DNA of 64,000 bases, from the NCBI RefSeq assembly GCF_023544445.1, contig NZ_JALPVJ010000019.1, positions 62,001 to 126,000 on the forward strand. The letters are read 5' to 3'. The position numbers and the translations under genes were made by a program. Position 1 is the first letter of the stretch; the number at the start of each line of letters is the position of its first letter. The notes under the pieces are model-generated. The model did no database searches and had not been told where the DNA came from. It saw nothing but the letters and a program-made list of their open reading frames with translations. The stretch comes from Actinoplanes sp. M2I2 (GTDB taxonomy: Bacteria > Actinomycetota > Actinomycetes > Mycobacteriales > Micromonosporaceae). Below, piece after piece: positions 3,033 through 34,127 of this stretch.

Positions 3033-5807
3033 TCAGGAGGAATGGACCTCGAACTCGGCGAGCTGGCCGGCCGGCCAGCCGGTGTTGCCGGTGAAGGTCA
3101 CCCGCACGTAGCGCGCGGTGGACGCGGTGAGGGTGACGGTGGCGGTGTTGCCCGACGCCGGGTCGAACGTGTAACCGGCGCTGCTCCGCAGGGTGCCGAA
3201 GGCGGAGCCATCGGTGCTGCCGAGCACCGAGAGCGTCTGGGTGCGGGTCGCCCACGCCGTGGCCGGCGGGAGCTTGAGGACCACCCGGCCGACCGACCGG
3301 TTCTGCCCCAGGTCGACGGTGACCGACTGGGGGAAGGCGCTGCTCCGGCTCTCCCAGTAAGTGCCGGCGTTGCCGTCGGTCACGTTGGCCGGGGCGTAGA
3401 CGTCGGCCTGGCTGGTCGCGGTCACGGGCCGGCCGGCGGCCAGGTTGCCGATGGCCGGCGGGGTCGTCACAGGCGGCGTGGTCGTGGGCGGGTTGGTCGT
3501 GGTGCCACCGGCGGCGTACGCCTCCAGTTCGGACAGTTGGGCCGCCGGCCAGCCGGTGTTGGCCGAGAAGGTGAGCCTGAGGTAGCGACGGTTGCCGGAG
3601 GGCAGCGTGATGGTCGCGCTCGGGTTGAGGGTGTACGCGGTGGCCGGGGTCAGCGACGTCCAGGACGATCCGTCGCCGGAGCCGGCGACCGCGACGGTCT
3701 GGTTGCGGCTCTCCCAGCCGGTGGGCAGCTTGAGCACGAGCCGGCCGACCGCCTGCGAGGAGCCGAGATCGACCGTGTACGTCTGCGGCAGCGCGCCGCT
3801 GCTCTCCCAGTAGGTCGACGCGTTGCCGTCGACCGCGTTGGCCCCGGCGTACTGTCCGTTGGTCGAGGACACCGTGACGGGCCGCCCCTGAGCGAGGTTC
3901 CCCGTCGTGGGAGGAGTCGTGGTCGGCGGAGTCGTCGGCGGAGTCGTCGGCGGGGTCGTCGGCGGGGTGGTCGGGCCGTTGCCGTACTGCGGCGCCGGCC
4001 ACGGTCCGCAGTACGAGTTGGCGGTCGACCAGCCCGAGTTGCCACCGCCGTCGGTGATCTGCAGACCCGCGCCGGCGCAGTTGTACACCGTCTGGCTCTG
4101 CGCGATGCCGGACGCCCGCACGTTGGTGAACCGGGCCGTGGCCGGGGCCTGCGCCTGCAGCGCGAACGTGCCGGCGCCGGCGATGGTCACGTTGGTCAGG
4201 TTCAGCCCGGTGGTCTGGCTGCCGATCCACTGGATCCCGGCGTACGAGCTGTCCAGGATGTCGGTGTCGGTGACGTTGATGGTGGCGCCGGTGATCGGTC
4301 CCTGGTCGCCCCAGAACCACAGGGCGCCGATCCCGAAGTTCCAGTTGTAGTCGGAATTGCCGGCCCGGATCAGGGTGTTGCGGGCCAGCGTCCAGGTGCC
4401 GGCGACCGCGGTCGGCCCGGTCACGCCCGGATACCGGTTGCCGACGTGGATGCCGCCGCCGTTGGAGACCGACTCGCTGACCACGTTGTCGGTCATCACG
4501 ATGTCCCGGCCGCCATAGCTGACCAGGTGGTTGGCCAGGATCGGGGCGACGATCGTGTTGCGGGTGAACGAGTTGCCGACGTTGGGCACGTTCTCGGCCC
4601 ACATGGCCAGCGCGTCGTCACCGGTGTTGCGGACGAACGTGTTGGTGACGGTCGAGTTGGTCACGCCGATGTGGAAGTTCACGCCGTCCGCGGTCTGGTC
4701 GAGGATGCGGCTGTTCTTGATGGTGAACCGGTCCATCGGCCCGTCCATCCAGGCCCCGACCTTGGTGTGCTGCATCCAGACGTTGTCGATGGTGGAGTTG
4801 GACATGGCTCCGCCGAACGCGTTGACCTGGTCGTTGTCGACCCGCTCACGGATGTCGCCGATCACCGCGAGGTCGCGGACCACGACGTTCTGGCTCGGGC
4901 CGCCCTCGTTGGTGTACTTGCCGTAGAGCCCGGCCGCGAGGTTGCGCTGGGTGGGGTGCCGCCCGCCGAGGACGCTGTACCAGGGTCCGGCCCCGGCCAG
5001 CGTGACGCGGTCGACGATCACGTGGCTGTAGAGGGTGAAATTGCCCCGCGGGACGTAGACCGTGCGGCCGGCCGCCGCGCCCGCGTTGACCGCGGCCTGG
5101 AACTTCGCCGTCGAGTCGGTGGCGCCGGTCGGGTCGGCGCCGTAGTCGGCCACCACGTCGATGGCGCCGGACGGCTTGGCGAGCGGCTCGGGCACGTTCT
5201 CGAAGTCGGCCAGGTCGATGGTGAAGGTCGGTGACTGCGCGGTCGAGGAGACCTGCAGCCGGATCTTCGTACCGGCCGGGTAGGTGGCGCCGAACAGCGT
5301 CCGGGCCTCGTCGTAGAAGTGGTGCGGCAGCGGGTCGCCGGGGTTGTTCGAGAACGGGTAGTAGCCGTAGTACCAGCTGTATTTCGAGGTGACCGGGACG
5401 GTCTTGACGAGCGTGGAGCCGCTGCGCACGTCGATCGTGGCGTCCCGGCCGGTGCCGGCGGCGTTGTCCGGGATGCTGTAGCGGAAGGTCACCGCGTTGG
5501 CCGGCTTGGTCAGGGTGAACTCGACGTACTCGCCGGCCGCGTCGAGGGTGACGGCCTCACGGCCGGACGCCTCCGACGAGAGGGTGCCGTAGGTGCGGCT
5601 GGTGCCGGTGGAGGTGCCGTTGTGCGCGGCCTTCTCGGCCTCCTGCTCGACGAAGGGGACCGTCGCGCCGCGGCCGGCGATGTCGAAGGGGGAGAGTCCG
5701 GCCGCCTGCGCCGGGGTTGCTGTCCAGGTGACGGCGACGGCCGAGGCGGCGACGGTGGCGCCCGTCGCCAAGGCGACGAGCGCGCGCCGGAGTTTGCGGT
5801 TGGCCAT
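3033..5807 (-). CDS. Secreted GH87-type alpha-1,3-glucanase with C-terminal discoidin domains
   Basis: 924 residues from ATG 5807, preceded by a strong ribosome site (AGGAAAGGGA). A longer in-frame start at 5972 lies inside the neighbouring glucosidase and is rejected. Layout: signal peptide (about 1-36), CBM35-like domain (45-205), beta-helix catalytic domain (about 212-605) opening with a pectate-lyase-3-like segment (VVADYGADPTGATDSTAKFQAA), a Thr-Pro linker (611-635), and two discoidin domains (637-770 and 793-924) separated by a second Thr-Pro linker. D374 in ADG and D397-D398 in GDD are the presumed catalytic aspartates. The binding modules sit at the C-terminus, the reverse of the downstream paralogue. 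The 60-bp gap to that gene suggests co-transcription. Likely role: extracellular cleavage of alpha-1,3-glucan. Confidence 0.85.
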   Translation of the reverse strand: MANRKLRRALVALATGATVAASAVAVTWTATPAQAAGLSPFDIAGRGATVPFVEQEAEKAAHNGTSTGTSRTYGTLSSEASGREAVTLDAAGEYVEFTLTKPANAVTFRYSIPDNAAGTGRDATIDVRSGSTLVKTVPVTSKYSWYYGYYPFSNNPGDPLPHHFYDEARTLFGATYPAGTKIRLQVSSTAQSPTFTIDLADFENVPEPLAKPSGAIDVVADYGADPTGATDSTAKFQAAVNAGAAAGRTVYVPRGNFTLYSHVIVDRVTLAGAGPWYSVLGGRHPTQRNLAAGLYGKYTNEGGPSQNVVVRDLAVIGDIRERVDNDQVNAFGGAMSNSTIDNVWMQHTKVGAWMDGPMDRFTIKNSRILDQTADGVNFHIGVTNSTVTNTFVRNTGDDALAMWAENVPNVGNSFTRNTIVAPILANHLVSYGGRDIVMTDNVVSESVSNGGGIHVGNRYPGVTGPTAVAGTWTLARNTLIRAGNSDYNWNFGIGALWFWGDQGPITGATINVTDTDILDSSYAGIQWIGSQTTGLNLTNVTIAGAGTFALQAQAPATARFTNVRASGIAQSQTVYNCAGAGLQITDGGGNSGWSTANSYCGPWPAPQYGNGPTTPPTTPPTTPPTTPPTTTPPTTGNLAQGRPVTVSSTNGQYAGANAVDGNASTYWESSGALPQTYTVDLGSSQAVGRLVLKLPTGWESRNQTVAVAGSGDGSSWTSLTPATAYTLNPSATITLPSGNRRYLRLTFSANTGWPAAQLSELEAYAAGGTTTNPPTTTPPVTTPPAIGNLAAGRPVTATSQADVYAPANVTDGNAGTYWESRSSAFPQSVTVDLGQNRSVGRVVLKLPPATAWATRTQTLSVLGSTDGSAFGTLRSSAGYTFDPASGNTATVTLTASTARYVRVTFTGNTGWPAGQLAEFEVHSS

Positions 5808-24368: not shown

Positions 24369-26492
24369 TCAGGCGGCGTTGATCGGCAGAGGCTCGCGGA
24401 CGCCGCGGGCCGGGTCGACGGTGTACATGTGGGCCTCGGCCAGGTCGAAATACAGCCCGCTCAGCGTCAGCCGGCCGGCCGCCTCGGCTTCGCGCACGAC
24501 CGGGTACGTCCGCAGGTTGACCAGTTGCTGGGCGACGTTGGCGGTGACGCAGTGCTCCTCGTCCCCGCAGCCCGAGAAGTCCACGCCGGAGCGGGTCAGC
24601 CAGCGGCCCAGCGCCCGGTCGGCCCGGAACCCGCCGGTCATCAGCGCCCGGACGGCGCCGCAGCCGGAGTGGCCGCAGACCGTGATCGTGCGGACCCCCA
24701 GCACCTCGACGGCGAACTCGATGGCCGCTCCGACCGAGGCGTCGCCGGTGTCGTGGGGCGGGACGATGTTGCCCACGTTGCGGAGGCAGAACAGGTCGCC
24801 GGGGCCGCTCGTCGTGATCAGGTTGGGCACCACGCGGGAGTCGGCGCACGTGATGAACAGCTGCTCGGGCTGCTGGCCGTCGCGGGCCAGGCCGGCCAGG
24901 TGCGGGCGGACCAGCGGCGCGACGCTGCGCTCGAACTCGCGGATGCCGGCGCCCATCGCGTCCCGGCGCTGGCGGTCCCGGTCCTGCCACTGCGACCACG
25001 AGCCGAATCGCCGGGGTGGCGCTGTCTTGCCGTCACCGAGCCGCCCGCTCGTCGCCCGCGAGAACCACCCGTCGTGGGTTTCCCGCACCGTGACGGTCCC
25101 GCCGCCTTTCTCGTACGTCTCCCGCCAGTCGTCGATCACCTGGAAGGCGCCGTGGTCGAGGTAGTCGAGGTGCAGCTCGATCGCGACGCGCTCACCGCCG
25201 GGGATCGTGGCCAGCGCGCGAGCCACCCGGCCGGAGCCCACGAAGGCCAGCGTGCCGCTGATCGTGACCGTCCACTCCCCCGGCCCGCCCGCGACGACCC
25301 GCGTCTCGCACCGGGCGAGCCGCCAGAGCATGACCAGCACCGCCGTGCCGAGCCCGAGCGCGACCCCGGTCAGCAGGTCGGTCGCGACCACTCCGACCGC
25401 GGTGATCAGGTAGGTGGGCAGTTCGCGGTGGCGGATGTAGGTGCGGATCTGGGCCAGGCTGATCAGCCGCAGGCCGACGACGACCAGCACAGCCGCGAGC
25501 GCCGCCATCGGGATCGTCTCGAGCAGCGGCGCGCACAGCAGCACGAAGACCGCGATCCACAGGCCGTGCAGGATCGCCGAGGCCCGGGTGCGCGCGCCCG
25601 CGGCCACGTTGGTCGAGCTGCGCACGATCACGCCGGTGATCGGCAGGCCGCCGAGCAGGCCGGAGGCGGCGTTGCCGGCGCCCTGGGCGACGAGTTCACG
25701 GTTGAGGTCGGCGCGGGGGCCGTCGTGCAGGCGGTCGACGGCGACCGCCGACAGCAGGGATTCGACGCTGGCGACCAGGGCGATGGTGAGCACCGCGACG
25801 GCGATCTCGCCGAGCCCGGCGTCCGGCCAGCGCGGGAAGACCATCTCGTCGAGCGGCCGGCCGGGAAGGTCGACGCGTTTGACGTCGGCGCCGATCGCGG
25901 CGGCCACGGCGGTGGTGAGGACGACCGCGGCGAGGGCGGCCGGCAGCAGCGAGGTCTTGACCAGGCGGGGCCAGAGCAGCAGGACGGCGATGGTGAGCAC
26001 GCCGAGCAGCATCGACACGCCGTGGTTGCCGATCACCTGCGCGGGCAGGTCGCGCAGGTTCCTCCAGGCTTCGCTCTGGGCGTCGCCGCCGAGCAGCACG
26101 TGGACCTGGCTGAGCGCGATGACCAGGCCGATGCCGGCGAGCATGCCGTGGACGACGGCGGGCGAGAGCGCCAGGGCGGCGCGACCGAGGCGGGCCACCC
26201 CGAGCAGGATCTGGACGCCGCCGGCCAGCGCCACGATGGCCGCGGTGGCGGCGAAGCCGTAACTCGCGATGGTGCCGGCGACGATCACGGTGAGCCCGGC
26301 CGCCGGACCGCTGACCTGCAGGGGCGCCCCACCGAGCAGGCCCACGACCACGCCGCCGACCACCGCCGCTATGAGCCCGGCGAGCAGCGGCGCGCCCGAG
26401 GCGGCGGCGATGCCCAGGGAGAGCGGGATGGCGATCAGGAAGACGACGATCGACGCCGGGACATCGTGCCGGAGGGCCTTCAAGACGGACAT
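24369..26492 (-). CDS. SulP anion transporter fused to STAS and beta-carbonic anhydrase domains
   Basis: 707 residues. Residues 1-400 are a SulP/SLC26 transporter with 10 or more spans (SGPAAGLTVIVAGT near the substrate site). About 405-490 is a STAS-like domain (WTVTISGTLAFVGSGRV). 510-707 is a beta-class carbonic anhydrase with all zinc ligands: C549 and D551 (CADSR), H608 and C611 (HSGCG). Such fusions suggest bicarbonate uptake directly coupled to CO2/HCO3- interconversion, as for BicA-type SulP carriers. The ORF is continuous without frameshift. It faces the MDMPI gene convergently. Confidence 0.93.
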   Translation of the reverse strand: MSVLKALRHDVPASIVVFLIAIPLSLGIAAASGAPLLAGLIAAVVGGVVVGLLGGAPLQVSGPAAGLTVIVAGTIASYGFAATAAIVALAGGVQILLGVARLGRAALALSPAVVHGMLAGIGLVIALSQVHVLLGGDAQSEAWRNLRDLPAQVIGNHGVSMLLGVLTIAVLLLWPRLVKTSLLPAALAAVVLTTAVAAAIGADVKRVDLPGRPLDEMVFPRWPDAGLGEIAVAVLTIALVASVESLLSAVAVDRLHDGPRADLNRELVAQGAGNAASGLLGGLPITGVIVRSSTNVAAGARTRASAILHGLWIAVFVLLCAPLLETIPMAALAAVLVVVGLRLISLAQIRTYIRHRELPTYLITAVGVVATDLLTGVALGLGTAVLVMLWRLARCETRVVAGGPGEWTVTISGTLAFVGSGRVARALATIPGGERVAIELHLDYLDHGAFQVIDDWRETYEKGGGTVTVRETHDGWFSRATSGRLGDGKTAPPRRFGSWSQWQDRDRQRRDAMGAGIREFERSVAPLVRPHLAGLARDGQQPEQLFITCADSRVVPNLITTSGPGDLFCLRNVGNIVPPHDTGDASVGAAIEFAVEVLGVRTITVCGHSGCGAVRALMTGGFRADRALGRWLTRSGVDFSGCGDEEHCVTANVAQQLVNLRTYPVVREAEAAGRLTLSGLYFDLAEAHMYTVDPARGVREPLPINAA

Positions 26493-27729: not shown

Positions 27730-27911
27730 CAAACAACCTCCGGTGAGAGTTCGGCCCGACGTTACAGGGTGTGTGCGAGCGTGGAGTCCACCGCCTGCCG
27801 TGTCGTCACAGTCATGCATGGCGCAGGACGGAAACGGGCACGTGACAGATTCGGCACATGTGATGGCAAGGCTCCGACAAGGCAGTGTTGGGCCAGGAGA
27901 GGGGCGGTCCC
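27730..27911. promoter_or_regulatory. Divergent promoter region of epimerase and ligase operons
   Basis: 182 bp between two outward-reading starts, so at least two promoters must be here. I see the ribosome sites at both ends (GGAGGTTG and GGAGAGGGG) but no convincing -35/-10 pair or palindrome. Confidence 0.4.
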
Positions 27912-30488
27912 ATGACGGAGTCTCTGAGCGTCGCTTCCGGCGGCGCTACGGCGAGCCACGGCCTCGACCTCGGTGTCGAGGAGGAGTTGCACGTCGTCGA
28001 CCTGGTCACCAGGGAGCTCGTGCCGCGTGCGCAGGAGGTGCTCGACCAGCTCGACCCGACGCATTTCTCGGCCGAGCTGCACCGGTCGGTGGTCGAGACG
28101 AACACCCCGGTGGCCACCACCCTGGACGGGCTGCGCGACGCCATCGTGGAGCGGCGCCGGACGGCGATCACGGTCGCCGAGTCGCTCGGGCTCGGCCTGG
28201 TCGCCGCGGGCACGGTCCCGCTGGTCGACCTGGAGTCACTCCCGGTGACGCCCACCTCGCGGTACCGGCGGATGCTGGACGACTACCAGATGCTCGCCCG
28301 GGAGCAGTTGATCTGCGGCGCCCAGGTGCACGTCGGCGTCCCCGACCGGGACGAAGCGGTCGCGGTGACCCAGCGGGTCGCCTCCTCCCTGCCGGTCCTG
28401 CTGTCGCTGAGCACGAGCTCGCCGTACTGGATGGGTGAGGACTCCGGCTATGCCAGCGTGCGATCGCTGGTCTGGCTGCGCTGGCCGACCGCGGGCGACC
28501 CCGGCCTGCTCAACAGCGCGGCCGAGTTCGACGAGCTGGTCGCCGACCTGATCGCCTCGGGCACCATCACCGACCCCAAGATGGTCTATTTCGACGTCCG
28601 CCCGTCGGCCCACGTGCCCACGGTCGAGCTGCGGGTCACCGACTCCAGCCCGGACGTCGACACGGTCGTGCTGATCGCCGGCCTGTTCCGCGGCCTGGTG
28701 CTGCGCGCCCAGCAGGACTACCGGGCGGGCCGGCCGTTCACCCCGACCCGGCCGCCCCTGCACCGCGCCGCGATGTGGCGGGCCGCCCGCTCGGGTCTCG
28801 AGGGTGATCTGCTCGACCTGCCGCGCTCGACGCAGCCGGTGCCGGCCGCCATCGCGGTCGAGCGGCTGATCGGCGACCTGCGCCCGCAGCTCGAGGAGCT
28901 GGGCGACTGGGAACACGTCTTCGACCTGTCGGTGCACGCGCTGAGCCGGGGCAGTTCGGCCGCCCGCCAGCGCCGGGCCCTGGCCCGCCGTGGCCGCATC
29001 TCCGACGTGGTCGACCTCATGGTGGCCGACACGAGGGGCGGCGCGACCGGCATCGGCCCCGAGGGCCAGACCGTCCCGGCCGGGCTGTTCCCCTATGTCG
29101 GGACCGGCGACGAGGCCTTCGCCGACGGTGAGACCAACCCGGCGTACGAGGGGATCGTCACGGTCCTGTCGGCGCTCGGCTCGGGGGGCCTGCGCCGCCG
29201 GGAGGACGCCCGGGACGACGAGCAGCGCTCGCGGGGCATCACCTTCAGCGTGGCCGGCGAGGCCGCCACCCGCCTGTTCCCCTTCGACCTGGTGCCGCGG
29301 ATCGTGCCGGCGGCCGACTGGGCGGCGCTGCGGGTCGGGCTGGTGCAGCGGGTCCGCGCGCTCGACCTGTTCATCCAGGACGTCTACGGCGACCGGAACG
29401 CCGTCCGGGACGGCATCGTGCCCGAGTGGGTGCTCGACGGGTCGCCCGAGCTGCGGCCGAGCGGCGCCCTGGTGACCCACGAGGGGGTCCGGGCCCAGGT
29501 GGCCGGCGTCGACCTGGTGCGCGACGCGGACGGCCGCTGGTGTGTGCTCGAGGACAACCTGCGGGTGCCCTCCGGCATCGCCTACGCCATGCAGAACCGC
29601 CGTCTCACCGAGGCCGTGCTGCCCGAGCTGCCCCAGCCGGACGGCCTGATCTCGGTCGAGCGCACCCCCGAGATGCTGCGCCGGGCGCTGCTCGAGTCGG
29701 CCCGCCCGGCCGCCGGCGACGACCCGAGGATCGTGGTGCTCAGCCAGGGGCCGGACGACTCGGCCTGGTTCGAGCACCGGATGCTGGCCGAGGACATGGG
29801 CGTCCCGGTCGTGCGCAGCACCGAGCTGTTCGTCGACGACAGCCGGGTGTTCCGGCTGCGCGACGGCAAGCGTCACCCGGTCGACGTGATCTATCTGCGG
29901 ATGGGCGAGGACAGCCTGGTCCACTCCCCCGGCGCCGACGGGATGCCGCTCGGCCCGAGCCTGATCACGGCTCTGCACGCCGACACCGTGGTGCTGGCCA
30001 ACGCGCTGGGCAACGGCATCGGCGACGACAAGGCCGTGTACGCCTACGTGCCCCAGCTGATCGAGTACTACCTGGGCGAGAAGCCGTTGCTGGCCGACGT
30101 GCCCACCTATCTGTGCGGCATCCCCGAGCAGCGGGCCGAGGTGCTCGACCGCCTGGACCAGCTGGTCTGCAAGCCGGTCGACGGCTACGGCGGCGACCGC
30201 ATCGTGATCGGCCCGCACGCGACCCCGGAGGACCTCGCGGCCGTACGGCGGCAGATCCGCACCGCGCCGCACCGGTGGGTCGCCCAGGAGGTCGTCCAGC
30301 TGTCGACCCACCCGGTGTTCGACGGCCACCAGCTCGCGCCCCGGCACGTCGATCTGCGGGCGTTCGTCTTCACCGGCACCGAGTCGGTGGTCGCCCCGGC
30401 CGCGCTGACCCGGGTCGCGCCGGCCGGCTCGATGATCGTCAACTCTTCGCGCGGCGGCGGTTCGAAGGACACCTGGTTGCTGGGGTGA
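27912..30488 (+). CDS. GCS2-type carboxylate-amine ligase fused to circularly permuted ATP-grasp
   Basis: 858 residues from ATG 27912. The first 380 residues match the glutamate-cysteine-ligase-2 family ([47 protein letters not shown]), which joins an amino acid or amine to the gamma- or alpha-carboxyl of glutamate. Residues about 400-858 are a circularly permuted type-2 ATP-grasp ([57 protein letters not shown]), also a carboxylate-amine ligase. The two catalytic modules could build a dipeptide stepwise. It heads an operon with an AsnB amidotransferase and a peptidase. Confidence 0.92.
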
Positions 30489-30546
30489 CAGCCGCGTTAC
30501 AGCGTGGTGACCTGATCGAAACCGACGACAGGGAGGTTCTTTAATC

Positions 30547-32319
30547 ATGTGCGGAATCGCGGGCGAGCTGCGGTACGACGGACACCTCGCGGACGCCGAG
30601 GCGGTCCACCGGATGCTGCCGTGCCTGGAATCGCGCGGACCGGACGGCGAGGGACTCTGGGCGCGCGGACCGGTCGTGCTCGGCCACCGCCGACTCAAGA
30701 TCATCGACCTGTCCGAGGCCGGCGGTCAGCCCATGATCGACGACGAGCTGGGCCTCTCGCTGGTCTTCAACGGCTGCATCTACAACTACAAGCAGCTGCG
30801 GGACGAGCTCCAGGGGTACGGCTACAAGTTCTTCTCCACCTCGGACACCGAGGTGATCATCAAGGCGTACCACCGCTGGGGCGCCGACTGCGTGCAGCAC
30901 TTCCTCGGCATGTTCGCGTTCGCGATCGTCGAGCACGACAGCGGGACGGTCGTGCTCGCCCGCGACCGCCTCGGCATCAAGCCGCTCTACCTGGCCGAGA
31001 CCCGGGGCCGGCTGCGGTTCGCGTCGACCCTGCCCGCGCTGCTCGCGGCCGGCGACGTCGACAAGTCGATCGACAAGGTCGCGCTGCAGCACTACATGAC
31101 GTTCCACTCGGTCGTGCCGGCGCCGCGCACCATCGTCAACGGCGTCCGGAAGCTCCCGCCGGCCACCGTCCGGATCATCCGGACCGACGGCACGTCGACC
31201 GAGCGCGTCTACTGGGAGGCGTCGCACGTCCGGCGGACGGACATCGCGGACGCCGAGTGGCCCGAGCTGATCCACGAGAAGCTCAAGGTGGCCGTCGAGC
31301 GGCGCATGGTCGCCGACGTGCCGGTGGGCGTGCTGCTGTCCGGCGGCATCGACTCCAGCTACATCGTGGCGCTGCTGGCCGAGCAGGGACAGCGTGGGCT
31401 CACGACGTTCAGCATCGGCTTCGAGGCGGCCGGCGGCGAGACCGGCGACGAGTTCGCGTACTCCGACATCGTGGCCAAGCAGTTCGACACTGTGCATCAT
31501 CAGATCAGAATCGGGAAAGACCGCTTCCTGCCGGCCGTCGACCGCACCGTCGCGGCGATGAGCGAGCCGATGGTCTCGCATGACTGCATCGCGTTCAACC
31601 TCTTGAGTGAGGACGTTTCAAAGCACGTTAAAGTCGTACAATCGGGCCAGGGCGCCGACGAGATCCTGGCCGGCTACAGCTGGTATCCGCCACTCGCGAA
31701 CGTCCCCTTGGACCAGGCCGTCGACGCGTACGCGAAGGAGTTCTTCGACCGCCCGCACAGCCGCCTCGCGCAGCAGCTCAGCCCCGAGTGGCTGATCGGC
31801 GAGGACGTCAGCCGGGCCTTCGTCGCCGCGAGCTTCGGCCGGCCCGGCGCCGAGACGGCGGTGGACGCGGCACTGCGGCTCGACTCCCAGGTCATGCTCG
31901 TCGACGACCCGGTCAAACGAGTCGACAACATGACTATGGCGTGGGGCCTGGAAGCTCGCGTACCGTTCCTCGATCACGAGTTGGTGGAACTGGCCGCGGC
32001 CTGCCCTCCCGCTCTGAAATTGGCGCACGGCGGCAAGGGGGTTCTCAAGGACGCGGCCCGCGGGGTCGTGCCCGACGAGGTGATCGACCGGACCAAGGGA
32101 TACTTCCCGGTTCCGGGCATCCGGCACCTCGAAGGCGCGATGCTCGACAAGGTCCGCGACGCGCTCTCGGCGCAGGCCGCCCGGGAACGGGGTCTGTTCC
32201 GGCAGGAGTACGTGGACTCCCTGCTGGCCGACCCGAACACGCCGCGCACCACGCTCGGCGCCAACCAGTTGTGGCAGCTCGCCCTGCTGGAGATGTGGTT
32301 GCAGGACAAGGGAATCTAG
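30547..32319 (+). CDS. AsnB-type amidotransferase (N-acetylglutaminylglutamine amidotransferase-like)
   Basis: 590 residues. Class II glutaminase domain with nucleophile Cys2 (MCGIAGELRYDG) and RGPDG; synthetase domain with PP-loop SGGIDSS starting at residue 265 and a C-terminal LEARVPFLDHELVELA typical of AsnB. The subfamily resembles the amidotransferase of the NAGGN osmoprotectant trio, in which an ATP-grasp/GNAT ligase makes a glutamine dipeptide that is then amidated. Here the partner upstream is a GCS2/ATP-grasp fusion and downstream an S9 peptidase. Product inferred to be an amidated small peptide. Confidence 0.9.
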   Translation: MCGIAGELRYDGHLADAEAVHRMLPCLESRGPDGEGLWARGPVVLGHRRLKIIDLSEAGGQPMIDDELGLSLVFNGCIYNYKQLRDELQGYGYKFFSTSDTEVIIKAYHRWGADCVQHFLGMFAFAIVEHDSGTVVLARDRLGIKPLYLAETRGRLRFASTLPALLAAGDVDKSIDKVALQHYMTFHSVVPAPRTIVNGVRKLPPATVRIIRTDGTSTERVYWEASHVRRTDIADAEWPELIHEKLKVAVERRMVADVPVGVLLSGGIDSSYIVALLAEQGQRGLTTFSIGFEAAGGETGDEFAYSDIVAKQFDTVHHQIRIGKDRFLPAVDRTVAAMSEPMVSHDCIAFNLLSEDVSKHVKVVQSGQGADEILAGYSWYPPLANVPLDQAVDAYAKEFFDRPHSRLAQQLSPEWLIGEDVSRAFVAASFGRPGAETAVDAALRLDSQVMLVDDPVKRVDNMTMAWGLEARVPFLDHELVELAAACPPALKLAHGGKGVLKDAARGVVPDEVIDRTKGYFPVPGIRHLEGAMLDKVRDALSAQAARERGLFRQEYVDSLLADPNTPRTTLGANQLWQLALLEMWLQDKGI

Positions 32320-32339
32320 ACAAACGAGGGAGGACCCGT

Positions 32340-34127
32340 ATGACCGGTCAGTTCAACCGTGTCGACGTCACCGTGCTGCCGATGGGCTGGACGAATCGTG
32401 AGACGGGATCCTTCCCCTCGGAAGTGTCGGGCAGCTGGTCGCCGGCGCTCTCGCCGGACGGCCGGCACGCCGCGTACGTCTCCGACCGCAGCGGCCGCCC
32501 GCAGGTCTGGGTGCAGCCGGTCGGCAGCGACCTGACCTTCCTGGTCGACACGGGTGAGGCGCCGGTCGCCGAGGTGCGGTGGTCGACCGGCGGGGGCTGG
32601 CTGGCCTGCCTGGTCGCGCCGGGCGGGGCGCCCCGCCACGAGCTGTGGCTGGTGCGCCCGGACGGCTCCGAGCTGCACCAGGTCGCGGGCTTCGGCGACG
32701 GCACGGCCGACAACATGCGCTGGCTGCCCGGCCGGTCGCTGCTGGCCTTCACCGAGAACCTCACCACGGCCCTGCTCGTCGACCCGGTCTCGGGTGAGCG
32801 GTCGGTGGTGGCCCGCGGGGAGCTGATCTCGCTGCTCGACGTCTCGCCCGGCCGCGACCGCGCGCTGCTGCGGGTCGGGCCGCGGGGCGACCGCCACATC
32901 GTCGTGCGCGACCTGCTCACCGGCGTCGACGAGTTCGTCACCACGGGCGAGCAGGCGGTCTTCGGCCCGGACGGCACGACGGTGTACGCCCGCAGCGAGT
33001 CGGGCGAGCTGCCGGTGCTGATCCGGGTGGTCAAGGGCAGCGTGGAGGTGCTGGCCGCGTCCGAGACCGATGAGATCGAGTCGTTCACGATCACGGCCGA
33101 CGGGCGTACGGCAGCGGTGTTGTGGAACGTGCGCGGCGGGCTCTCGGAGCTCACCCTGCTCGACCTCGACTCGGGCGCCGGGCGACCCGTGACCCCGCTG
33201 CCGGGGCTCGTGGTCAGCGGTCCGGCCTGGTCCTTCGACGGCTCCACGCTGGCCTTCACGGCCGAGGGGCCGGGGCAGCCGCACGGCGTGTGGGTGTCGT
33301 CGGCGATCGGCGTCCAGGCGATCTCGGCCGACCCGGCGGCGCCGAACGCGGTACGGCCCACCCTCGAGACGTTCGCCGCGCACGACGGGCTGACGCTGAC
33401 CGGCTGGCTGTTCCGGCCGGCCACCCCGGGGCCGCACCCGACGGTGCTGTGGTTCCACGGCGGCCCCGAGGCGCAGGAACGACCCGGGCACGGGCCGCTC
33501 TTCCAGTCGCTGACCGACCGCGGCATCGCCGTGTTCGCCCCCAACGTCCGCGGGTCCTCGGGCTTCGGGCGCAGCTTCGTCAACGCCGACAACCTGGGGC
33601 TGCGCTACGCGGCGATCGAGGACGTGCGCTCGTGCGCCACCTACCTCACCGGGTCGGGCATCTCCTCCACGCTGGGGATCATGGGCCGCTCGTACGGCGG
33701 GTACCTCACGCTGGCCGCGCTGACGACGTTCCCCGACCTGTTCGCGGTGGGCATCGACGTCTGCGGCATGTCCAACTTCGCGACCTTCTACGAGCACACC
33801 GAGCCGTGGATCGCGGCGGCCGCGGTCTCCAAGTACGGCGACCCGGTGGCCGACCGCGACCTGCTCGAGGACCTGTCCCCGATCACCCGCATCGACCGCC
33901 TGCGGACCCCGCTGATGATCGTGCACGGCGAGAACGACAGCAACGTCCCGGTGATCGAGGCCGAGCAGGTCGTCGCCGCCCTGGCCGCGCGCGGCGTCCC
34001 GCACCGCTACCTGCTCTTCCCCGGCGAGGGGCACGAGCTGCTGAACCGCTCGTCGCGATCCGACTACCTGCGCGAGACGGTGGACTGGCTGACCACCTAC
34101 CTGAGCCCGCTGATCACTTCTTCATGA
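32340..34127 (+). CDS. S9-family (prolyl-oligopeptidase-type) serine peptidase
   Basis: 595 residues from ATG 32340 after GAGGGAGGACC, 20 nt behind the amidotransferase. The N-terminal 330 residues form a WD/propeller-like beta region (SPDGRHAAYVSDRSGRPQVW). The C-terminal alpha/beta-hydrolase domain has S451 in GRSYGGY, D533 in HGENDSNVP and H565 in GEGHE. No signal peptide, so it should act in the cytoplasm. In the analogous NAGGN trio a peptidase accompanies synthesis, perhaps for turnover of the peptide osmolyte. The last 14 bp overlap the convergent hypothetical gene. Confidence 0.92.
   Translation: MTGQFNRVDVTVLPMGWTNRETGSFPSEVSGSWSPALSPDGRHAAYVSDRSGRPQVWVQPVGSDLTFLVDTGEAPVAEVRWSTGGGWLACLVAPGGAPRHELWLVRPDGSELHQVAGFGDGTADNMRWLPGRSLLAFTENLTTALLVDPVSGERSVVARGELISLLDVSPGRDRALLRVGPRGDRHIVVRDLLTGVDEFVTTGEQAVFGPDGTTVYARSESGELPVLIRVVKGSVEVLAASETDEIESFTITADGRTAAVLWNVRGGLSELTLLDLDSGAGRPVTPLPGLVVSGPAWSFDGSTLAFTAEGPGQPHGVWVSSAIGVQAISADPAAPNAVRPTLETFAAHDGLTLTGWLFRPATPGPHPTVLWFHGGPEAQERPGHGPLFQSLTDRGIAVFAPNVRGSSGFGRSFVNADNLGLRYAAIEDVRSCATYLTGSGISSTLGIMGRSYGGYLTLAALTTFPDLFAVGIDVCGMSNFATFYEHTEPWIAAAAVSKYGDPVADRDLLEDLSPITRIDRLRTPLMIVHGENDSNVPVIEAEQVVAALAARGVPHRYLLFPGEGHELLNRSSRSDYLRETVDWLTTYLSPLITSS

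Follow-up and report, generated by a model that had tools for sequence, protein, structure and literature searches.

What is made by an operon in which the amidotransferase of N-acetylglutaminylglutamine amide (NAGGN) synthesis stands beside a ligase resembling the enzymes of glutathione synthesis? The question is raised by Actinoplanes sp. M2I2, in which three consecutive forward-strand genes (positions 27912-34127, with intergenic gaps of 58 and 20 bases) occupy part of the 64,000-nucleotide stretch analyzed here (referred to as the window) of a 9.58 Mb genome. The first gene, P1 (27912..30488; 858 amino acids, aa), encodes a GCS2 carboxylate-amine ligase fused to a circularly permuted type 2 ATP-grasp ligase (CP-ATP-grasp); the second, P2 (30547..32319; 590 aa), encodes AsnO, a glutamine-dependent AsnB-type amidotransferase of the NAGGN family TIGR03104; and the third, P3 (32340..34127; 595 aa), an S9 peptidase of the acylaminoacyl-peptidase type. 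These three genes with their domain matches confirm the operon of ligase fusion, amidotransferase and S9 peptidase that an earlier sequence-only reading of the window had proposed. On balance, the operon probably serves to synthesize and recycle a small peptide amide inside the cell, following the scheme of the NAGGN pathway with a glutathione-style ligase replacing Ngg. In that pathway, Ngg acetylates glutamine and joins a second one to it, and AsnO amidates the product (PMC8070244 and PMC5563000). Deletion of the NAGGN genes in Pseudomonas led to slower growth at high osmolarity (PMC8070244), and NAGGN is one of the two main metabolites of a Micromonospora carrying asnO and ngg (PMC8146288).

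The three genes travel together well beyond the host. When an alignment of seven fusions was used to search named bacterial genomes, 330 relatives of P1 were found, and the best 80 of these were kept; every one of the 80 is a fusion, an outcome that the ranking promotes. In 79 of them AsnO follows downstream in the same orientation, and in 75 an S9 gene comes after AsnO, with neither Ngg nor an M42 peptidase in any of the 80 fetched stretches. AsnO starts at most 150 bases from the last aligned base of P1 in 72 of 79 loci, and the S9 match lies at most 250 bases from AsnO in 75 of 75. By family, 53 loci belong to Micromonosporaceae, 14 to Pseudonocardiaceae, 2 to Thermomonosporaceae and one each to Nocardioidaceae, Dermatophilaceae, Nocardiaceae and Mycobacteriaceae, seven more having no family name. 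A survey of operon conservation had been suggested along with the proposal; the counts above, with the order of P1 followed by AsnO recurring in 7 named families, show that the arrangement is not chance. Among the five loci lacking S9, one ends at a contig edge (L136), one also lacks AsnO (L108) and three have room for the gene but none (L100, L106 and L118). In the last of these, an Actinoallomurus metagenome-assembled genome, an EgtC-like gene (4684-5493) follows AsnO at the place expected for S9, and its score of 216.2 bits narrowly misses the cut-off of 218.65; EgtC takes off a γ-glutamyl group in ergothioneine synthesis.

Neighbouring proteins of at least 100 aa, called with a simple gene finder, were clustered and the 60 largest clusters examined. 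Eight reach at least four genera: three are the operon itself, one is a fusion of a SulP anion transporter and a carbonic anhydrase, and the rest were judged by eye. Only the P1, AsnO and S9 clusters extend past Micromonosporaceae. Within the limits of this clustering, the operon consists of three genes and has no constant neighbours.

The ligase P1 holds a GCS2 domain at residues 20-296 (27969..28799, forward strand; Pfam E 5.6e-53) and a CP_ATPgrasp_2 domain at residues 462-836 (29295..30419, forward strand; E 2.8e-126). The former carries the GhExE motif, as defined in PMC2588565, at G21-E23-E25 along with H140, D228, R230, E239 and R241, and the latter, of glutathione-synthetase-like fold, carries D548, N549, K707, K754, D814, R816, R834, N844 and K852; these polar residues, which beyond the GhExE motif were chosen from invariant alignment columns, are kept in 35 of 35 aligned fusions. 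The GCS2 half is recognized by PF04107 and TIGR02050 (273.9 bits, cut-off 176.4) and the ATP-grasp half by PF14403 (421.9 bits, cut-off 32), and at E ≤ 0.001 P1 matched neither the EgtA model of ergothioneine synthesis (TIGR03444) nor the NCBIfam GshF/GshAB model. Comparison of the predicted structure (mean predicted local distance difference test score 85.9, predicted template-modelling score 0.65, 35 sequences) with solved ones placed the GCS2 half next to YbdK (1r8g) and plant glutamate-cysteine ligase (2gwc), and the ATP-grasp half next to 3n6x and, more distantly, human (8fbz) and plant glutathione synthetases, the GshF structure 3ln7 ranking only 50 with a template-modelling score of 0.37 by target. 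By predicted fold, P1 is thus both glutathione-synthesis enzymes in one chain, drawn from families other than GshF. The five nearest proteins among the matches listed belong to Paractinoplanes and Actinoplanes species (91-95% identical over the best segment). A lone GCS2 gene on a Mycobacterium branderi plasmid (L157, 4989-6128) is 56% identical to the GCS2 half of P1, with AsnO absent within 5 kb on each side.

At the other end of the operon, the S9 domain of P3 covers residues 388-588 (PF00326, E 2.8e-43) and is accompanied by a PD40 propeller repeat; no signal-like N-terminus was seen by eye. The residues aligned with its catalytic S451, D533 and H565 are conserved in 81 of 81 relatives, and its nearest solved structures include acylaminoacyl peptidases (5l8s and 1ve6). 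Enzymes of this kind free blocked residues. P3 would empty the solute pool and recycle the product, a role that the authors of a Frankia study propose for their own peptidase (PMC5563000).

The amidotransferase links this operon to NAGGN. P2 scores 972.5 bits against TIGR03104 (NCBIfam cut-off 570.1) and shares 61% and 63% identity with the AsnO proteins of Sinorhizobium medicae and Azospirillum lipoferum, respectively, both of which adjoin Ngg. The sequence-only reading had treated it as the counterpart of the NAGGN amidotransferase; the parallel holds, and the enzyme proves to be not an analogue but a full member of the same family. Ngg is absent from the host genome at the cut-off, the best TIGR03103 match reaching 160.6 bits against a cut-off of 569. 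This weak match covers part of Ngg (positions 238-511) within an open frame of 1715 residues located in another part of the genome (L001/L014, G000:C30). Among 150 sampled genomes of the same family, 50 hold AsnO over the cut-off, with a score step from 881.6 to 405.9 bits; the fusion occurs in 24 (including G143, where the match falls in three pieces of one open frame), Ngg in 23 and both in none. Coordinates compared by hand put the fusion beside AsnO in 24 of 24 genomes and Ngg beside AsnO in 23 of 23, and the other three AsnO genomes (G065, G081 and G138) hold only a paralogue of it, termed group C. The chance of zero overlap is 0.013 over the 150 genomes and 2.4e-11 within the 50, values not corrected for kinship. 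The fusion is also present in twelve Micromonospora genomes other than the NAGGN producer.

Several further ligase settings of AsnO were found in actinobacteria. A sample of 296 genomes across the phylum contained 31 with AsnO, and their settings were assigned from hand-compared coordinates, twelve loci being read in detail. Setting A, AsnO with Ngg, accounts for 21 of the 31 (two with incomplete Ngg matches); setting B, the fusion with AsnO, for 2; setting D, a single GCS2 followed by AsnO and S9, for 4; setting E, CP-ATP-grasp followed by AsnO and DUF1028, for 3; and setting F, GCS2 followed by AsnO, for 1. Azospirillum lipoferum is a named example of setting A, and a Streptomyces fungicidicus record with annotated genes one of setting D. 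At the order level, 40 AsnO loci were hand-picked for families and genera from 150 genomes with a match, a set that overlaps the 80 fusion loci (at least L186 and L198 equal L130 and L103). These divide into 12 of setting A, 16 of setting B (15 with S9), 8 of setting G (AsnO, S9 and CP-ATP-grasp without GCS2), 2 of setting H (AsnO, S9, GCS2 and CP-ATP-grasp as separate genes), one AsnO with CP-ATP-grasp and one AsnO with S9, and no stretch among the 40 combines Ngg with the other ligases. Profile models built from loci collected earlier in the analysis served to identify the genes; Pfam confirms the divergent GCS2, CP_ATPgrasp_2 and DUF1028 members of setting E and the S9 gene of setting D. 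In setting E, a GCS2 gene lies upstream in L146 (frames partly interrupted) and L147, not in L145, and GCS2 and CP-ATP-grasp are separate neighbouring genes in L147, L176 and L180.

The fusion of the two ligases in setting B and their occurrence as separate genes in settings E and H is a classical sign, read from gene content, that both act in one pathway. The four genomes of setting D contain no CP-ATP-grasp match at E ≤ 1e-15, and seven of the eight G genomes have a GCS2-like match elsewhere in the genome; where either ligase is absent beside AsnO, the product varies or the partner is encoded elsewhere. In the published Casuarina Frankia locus, which has the gene order of setting G, the ligase is called Ngg though it shares less than 15% identity with known Ngg (PMC5563000), and in Frankia alni the amidotransferase FRAAL1888, placed in NAGGN synthesis by the authors, rises 2.2-fold under polyethylene glycol (PMC5768760). 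A nifH search of family f73, a candidate for Frankia, gave 0 of 15 genomes over the cut-off, and the published gene order is kept here as a lead. A DUF1028-like gene adjoins AsnO both in a classical NAGGN setting (L184, 7516-8121, recognized with a two-sequence model) and in the one with CP-ATP-grasp (L145, 8062-8784, and L147). DUF1028 is possibly a third kind of recycling hydrolase.

If these ligases feed the same amidotransferase, does its active site follow them? In an alignment of 104 AsnO proteins, which left out three incomplete ones (L106, L124 and L136) and the locus lacking AsnO (L108), 135 of 590 positions are invariant. With group B thinned to 30 rows and 90% conservation demanded within each group, no position splits the 10 NAGGN-type proteins from the 39 that represent settings B, D and E; against B and D there are two such positions, and against B three. 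At the level of sequence, the active site of AsnO is not consistently different between the NAGGN and GCS2 settings. The proteins of paralogue group C depart from the NAGGN type at 14 positions, some of them around the SGQGADE motif (364, 379 and 380), and from B and D together at 11. The host genome encodes one such paralogue (L013; G000:C18:109143-110915; 884 bits, over the cut-off), with residues changed near the active site and no ligase adjoining, and relatives of this gene (L048, L049, L055 and L151) have a single GCS2 gene of another lineage close by. Taken together, the TIGR03104 membership, the lack of co-occurrence of Ngg and fusion in the 150 sampled genomes of the family and the lack of a consistent active-site difference uphold the NAGGN parallel of the sequence-only reading, in which ligase and peptidase were both said to be exchanged; that double exchange is real and widespread, and the reading as a whole is supported in part.

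The history of the settings was examined in a tree of 56 AsnO proteins (group B thinned to 30 rows) and a quick GCS2 tree (group B thinned to 27 rows), both midpoint-rooted. Settings B, C and D lie on one side of a branch of the AsnO tree with support 92/97 (not starred), B and D being united at 95/93, and all six D rows form one group with the Actinoallomurus fusion L118 (94/92). The Nonomuraea D locus L155 stands beside L118 in both trees, and the five Streptomyces-type D rows stand apart in the GCS2 tree. Because the D rows group with this fusion, setting D likely arose from setting B when the ATP-grasp part was lost. The idea that the ligase was exchanged in place within Micromonospora was rejected, its fusion-type rows of the AsnO tree grouping with Catenuloplanes and Virgisporangium rather than with the Ngg-type members of the family.

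The logic of the operon is well supported, and from it we infer substrates, product and role. As a fused ligase pair, P1 would yield γ-Glu-X-Y, the natural product of such a pair, its CP-ATP-grasp domain activating the carboxyl of γ-Glu-X and adding a second amino acid Y. AsnO, whose family membership is established, would then amidate the C-terminal carboxylate with nitrogen from glutamine to give γ-Glu-X-Y-NH2, and the S9 peptidase would hydrolyse the product once it is no longer needed. The fold comparison makes a γ-glutamyl di- or tripeptide amide a more plausible product than the sequence-only reading could tell. AsnO and its NAGGN relatives lack a consistent active-site difference; by analogy, the C-terminal residue is therefore most likely glutamine as in NAGGN, and the first candidates would be γ-Glu-Gln-NH2 and γ-Glu-Gln-Gln-NH2, in which a γ-glutamyl cap takes the place of N-acetyl. 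Such amides would have zero net charge, in keeping with what is expected of a compatible solute, and by the same analogy a role like that of NAGGN is probable. In these bacteria a two-step, glutathione-like ligase takes the usual place of Ngg beside a NAGGN-family AsnO, so they probably produce a small peptide amide other than NAGGN.

Several observations weigh against this proposal. When all 87 rows of B, D and E are compared at an 85% limit, AsnO positions 119, 331 and 525, the three already noted against B, do split the groups, all by hydrophobic exchanges. Eighteen positions split five close actinobacterial NAGGN members from B, as is usual between lineages. Glutamine as X or Y is an analogy through the kinship of AsnO with the NAGGN enzyme, not a finding. 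The two-step tripeptide scheme is not constant everywhere, as AsnO stands beside GCS2 only in setting D and beside CP-ATP-grasp only in setting G, which rules out a fixed two-ligase scheme. The exclusion between fusion and Ngg follows genus lines in a sample not corrected for kinship, and two genomes at the order level, G600 and G653, carry both a fusion operon (L196 and L197) and an AsnO-Ngg pair (L203 and L204). Strict mutual exclusion, which holds in the family sample, is broken by these two genomes; because they hold both systems, the two are not simply interchangeable there, which suggests two different products per cell.

The alternative that survives best is a thiol, which we consider unlikely: a glutathione-amide-like γ-Glu-Cys-Y-NH2, with cysteine as X, acting in redox or detoxification. 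It takes at face value the predicted folds of the fusion, those of glutamate-cysteine ligase and glutathione synthetase, and the passing score of the GCS2 half in the NCBIfam 'glutamate--cysteine ligase' subfamily NF010041 (364 bits, cut-off 332), where the match speaks through the name of the model only. Purple sulfur bacteria, which have glutathione amide (cited in PMC7278568), provide a precedent. It sits poorly with an AsnO of the NAGGN family whose active site lacks consistent change, and the lack of a CP-ATP-grasp match at E ≤ 1e-15 in all four D genomes would be unexpected of a tripeptide thiol. No redox enzyme was recognized by eye in the eight widespread neighbour clusters; moreover, mycothiol is a known thiol of these bacteria, which also counts against a thiol product.

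Slightly less probable still is NAGGN itself, or a close acyl variant, as the product, with the fusion replacing Ngg in function. The shared amidotransferase family, the lack of a consistent change in its active site and the zero overlap of fusion and Ngg in the family sample would be expected under such a replacement, and the authors of the Casuarina Frankia study assumed NAGGN in spite of the low identity of their 'Ngg' (PMC5563000). However, an acetyltransferase domain is absent from P1, P2 and P3 and none was recognized by eye in the eight widespread neighbour clusters, GCS2 enzymes link the γ-carboxyl of glutamate rather than acetyl groups, and two genomes have kept both systems. A tagging system with CP-ATP-grasp ligases was reportedly proposed by Iyer in 2009. 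That the ligases here put a peptide tag on proteins and the S9 enzyme takes it off is very improbable: the Pup ligase PafA has GCS2 as its nearest relative (PMC2588565), but an amidotransferase capping a carboxylate fits a finished small molecule better, and 1721 small frames around the operon, compared between families, gave no convincing tag gene, a weak point since only the best match per family pair was inspected (a low-complexity frame rich in arginine and proline or, in one case, the start of S9).

The preferred reading of a peptide amide pathway can be extended to the whole range of settings. It is quite conceivable, if somewhat short of an even chance, that undescribed γ-glutamyl peptide amides form a large class of compatible solutes in Actinomycetota, made with a constant AsnO and interchangeable ligases (Ngg, or GCS2 and CP-ATP-grasp in fused, split or single form) and hydrolases (M42, S9, perhaps DUF1028), the ligase module setting the solute. 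If so, annotations of NAGGN producers that rest on AsnO alone would be wrong and databases and papers would need correction; the AsnO of setting D in the Streptomyces fungicidicus record is named 'N-acetylglutaminylglutamine amidotransferase' by NCBI. NAGGN would then be one among several peptide amides made by a modular pathway, protective small molecules of a new group could be discovered, and the way in which pathways switch product could be tested directly on an amidotransferase that is paired with several ligases. The component families are all known already. Such ligases are said to have been surveyed by Iyer in 2009. No description of the combination of GCS2, CP-ATP-grasp and AsnO was found in the literature searched, where an earlier mention is possible; in the excerpts of a Nocardiopsis gilva paper, NAGGN appears only within a list.

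Two further features flank the operon in the window. A conserved block 5' of it, GAAAYGGGCACG...GGCTC (27831..27874, forward strand), is perhaps a promoter or 5' leader; it is clear in 23 of 25 chosen upstream regions from Actinoplanes and kin and degenerate in L072 and L076. A regulon search with the motif gave a single exact site of its core in the genome and 3 further sites at one mismatch, and no Rfam family matched the upstream region or the window. The block may be the promoter of the operon. The SulP anion transporter-carbonic anhydrase fusion lies on the reverse strand at 24369-26492, and relatives of it occur in the fetched stretch of 29 of the 80 loci, all Micromonosporaceae.

Among known systems, the NAGGN pathway is the closest: both have an AsnO of TIGR03104 in an operon of ligase, amidotransferase and peptidase, whereas Ngg (GNAT and ATP-grasp, TIGR03103) is replaced here by the GCS2/CP-ATP-grasp fusion and the M42 peptidase by the S9 enzyme P3. 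The glutathione amide of purple sulfur bacteria would, if the proposal holds, share a γ-glutamyl peptide with a C-terminal amide, but is a thiol, and the gene amidating it is not named in the excerpts available. P3 resembles the acylaminoacyl peptidases (S9C) in its near solved structures and intact triad and differs in being tied to this operon. The YbdK carboxylate-amine ligases share TIGR02050 with the GCS2 half of P1, which is, in contrast, joined in one chain with another ligase and associated with AsnO. Finally, GshF, like GshA with GshB, provides the precedent for a single chain in which a γ-glutamyl ligase precedes an ATP-grasp ligase, and the halves of P1 match the predicted folds of plant glutamate-cysteine ligase and eukaryotic glutathione synthetase; P1, however, uses the GCS2 (YbdK-type) and circularly permuted ATP-grasp families and is followed by an amidotransferase.

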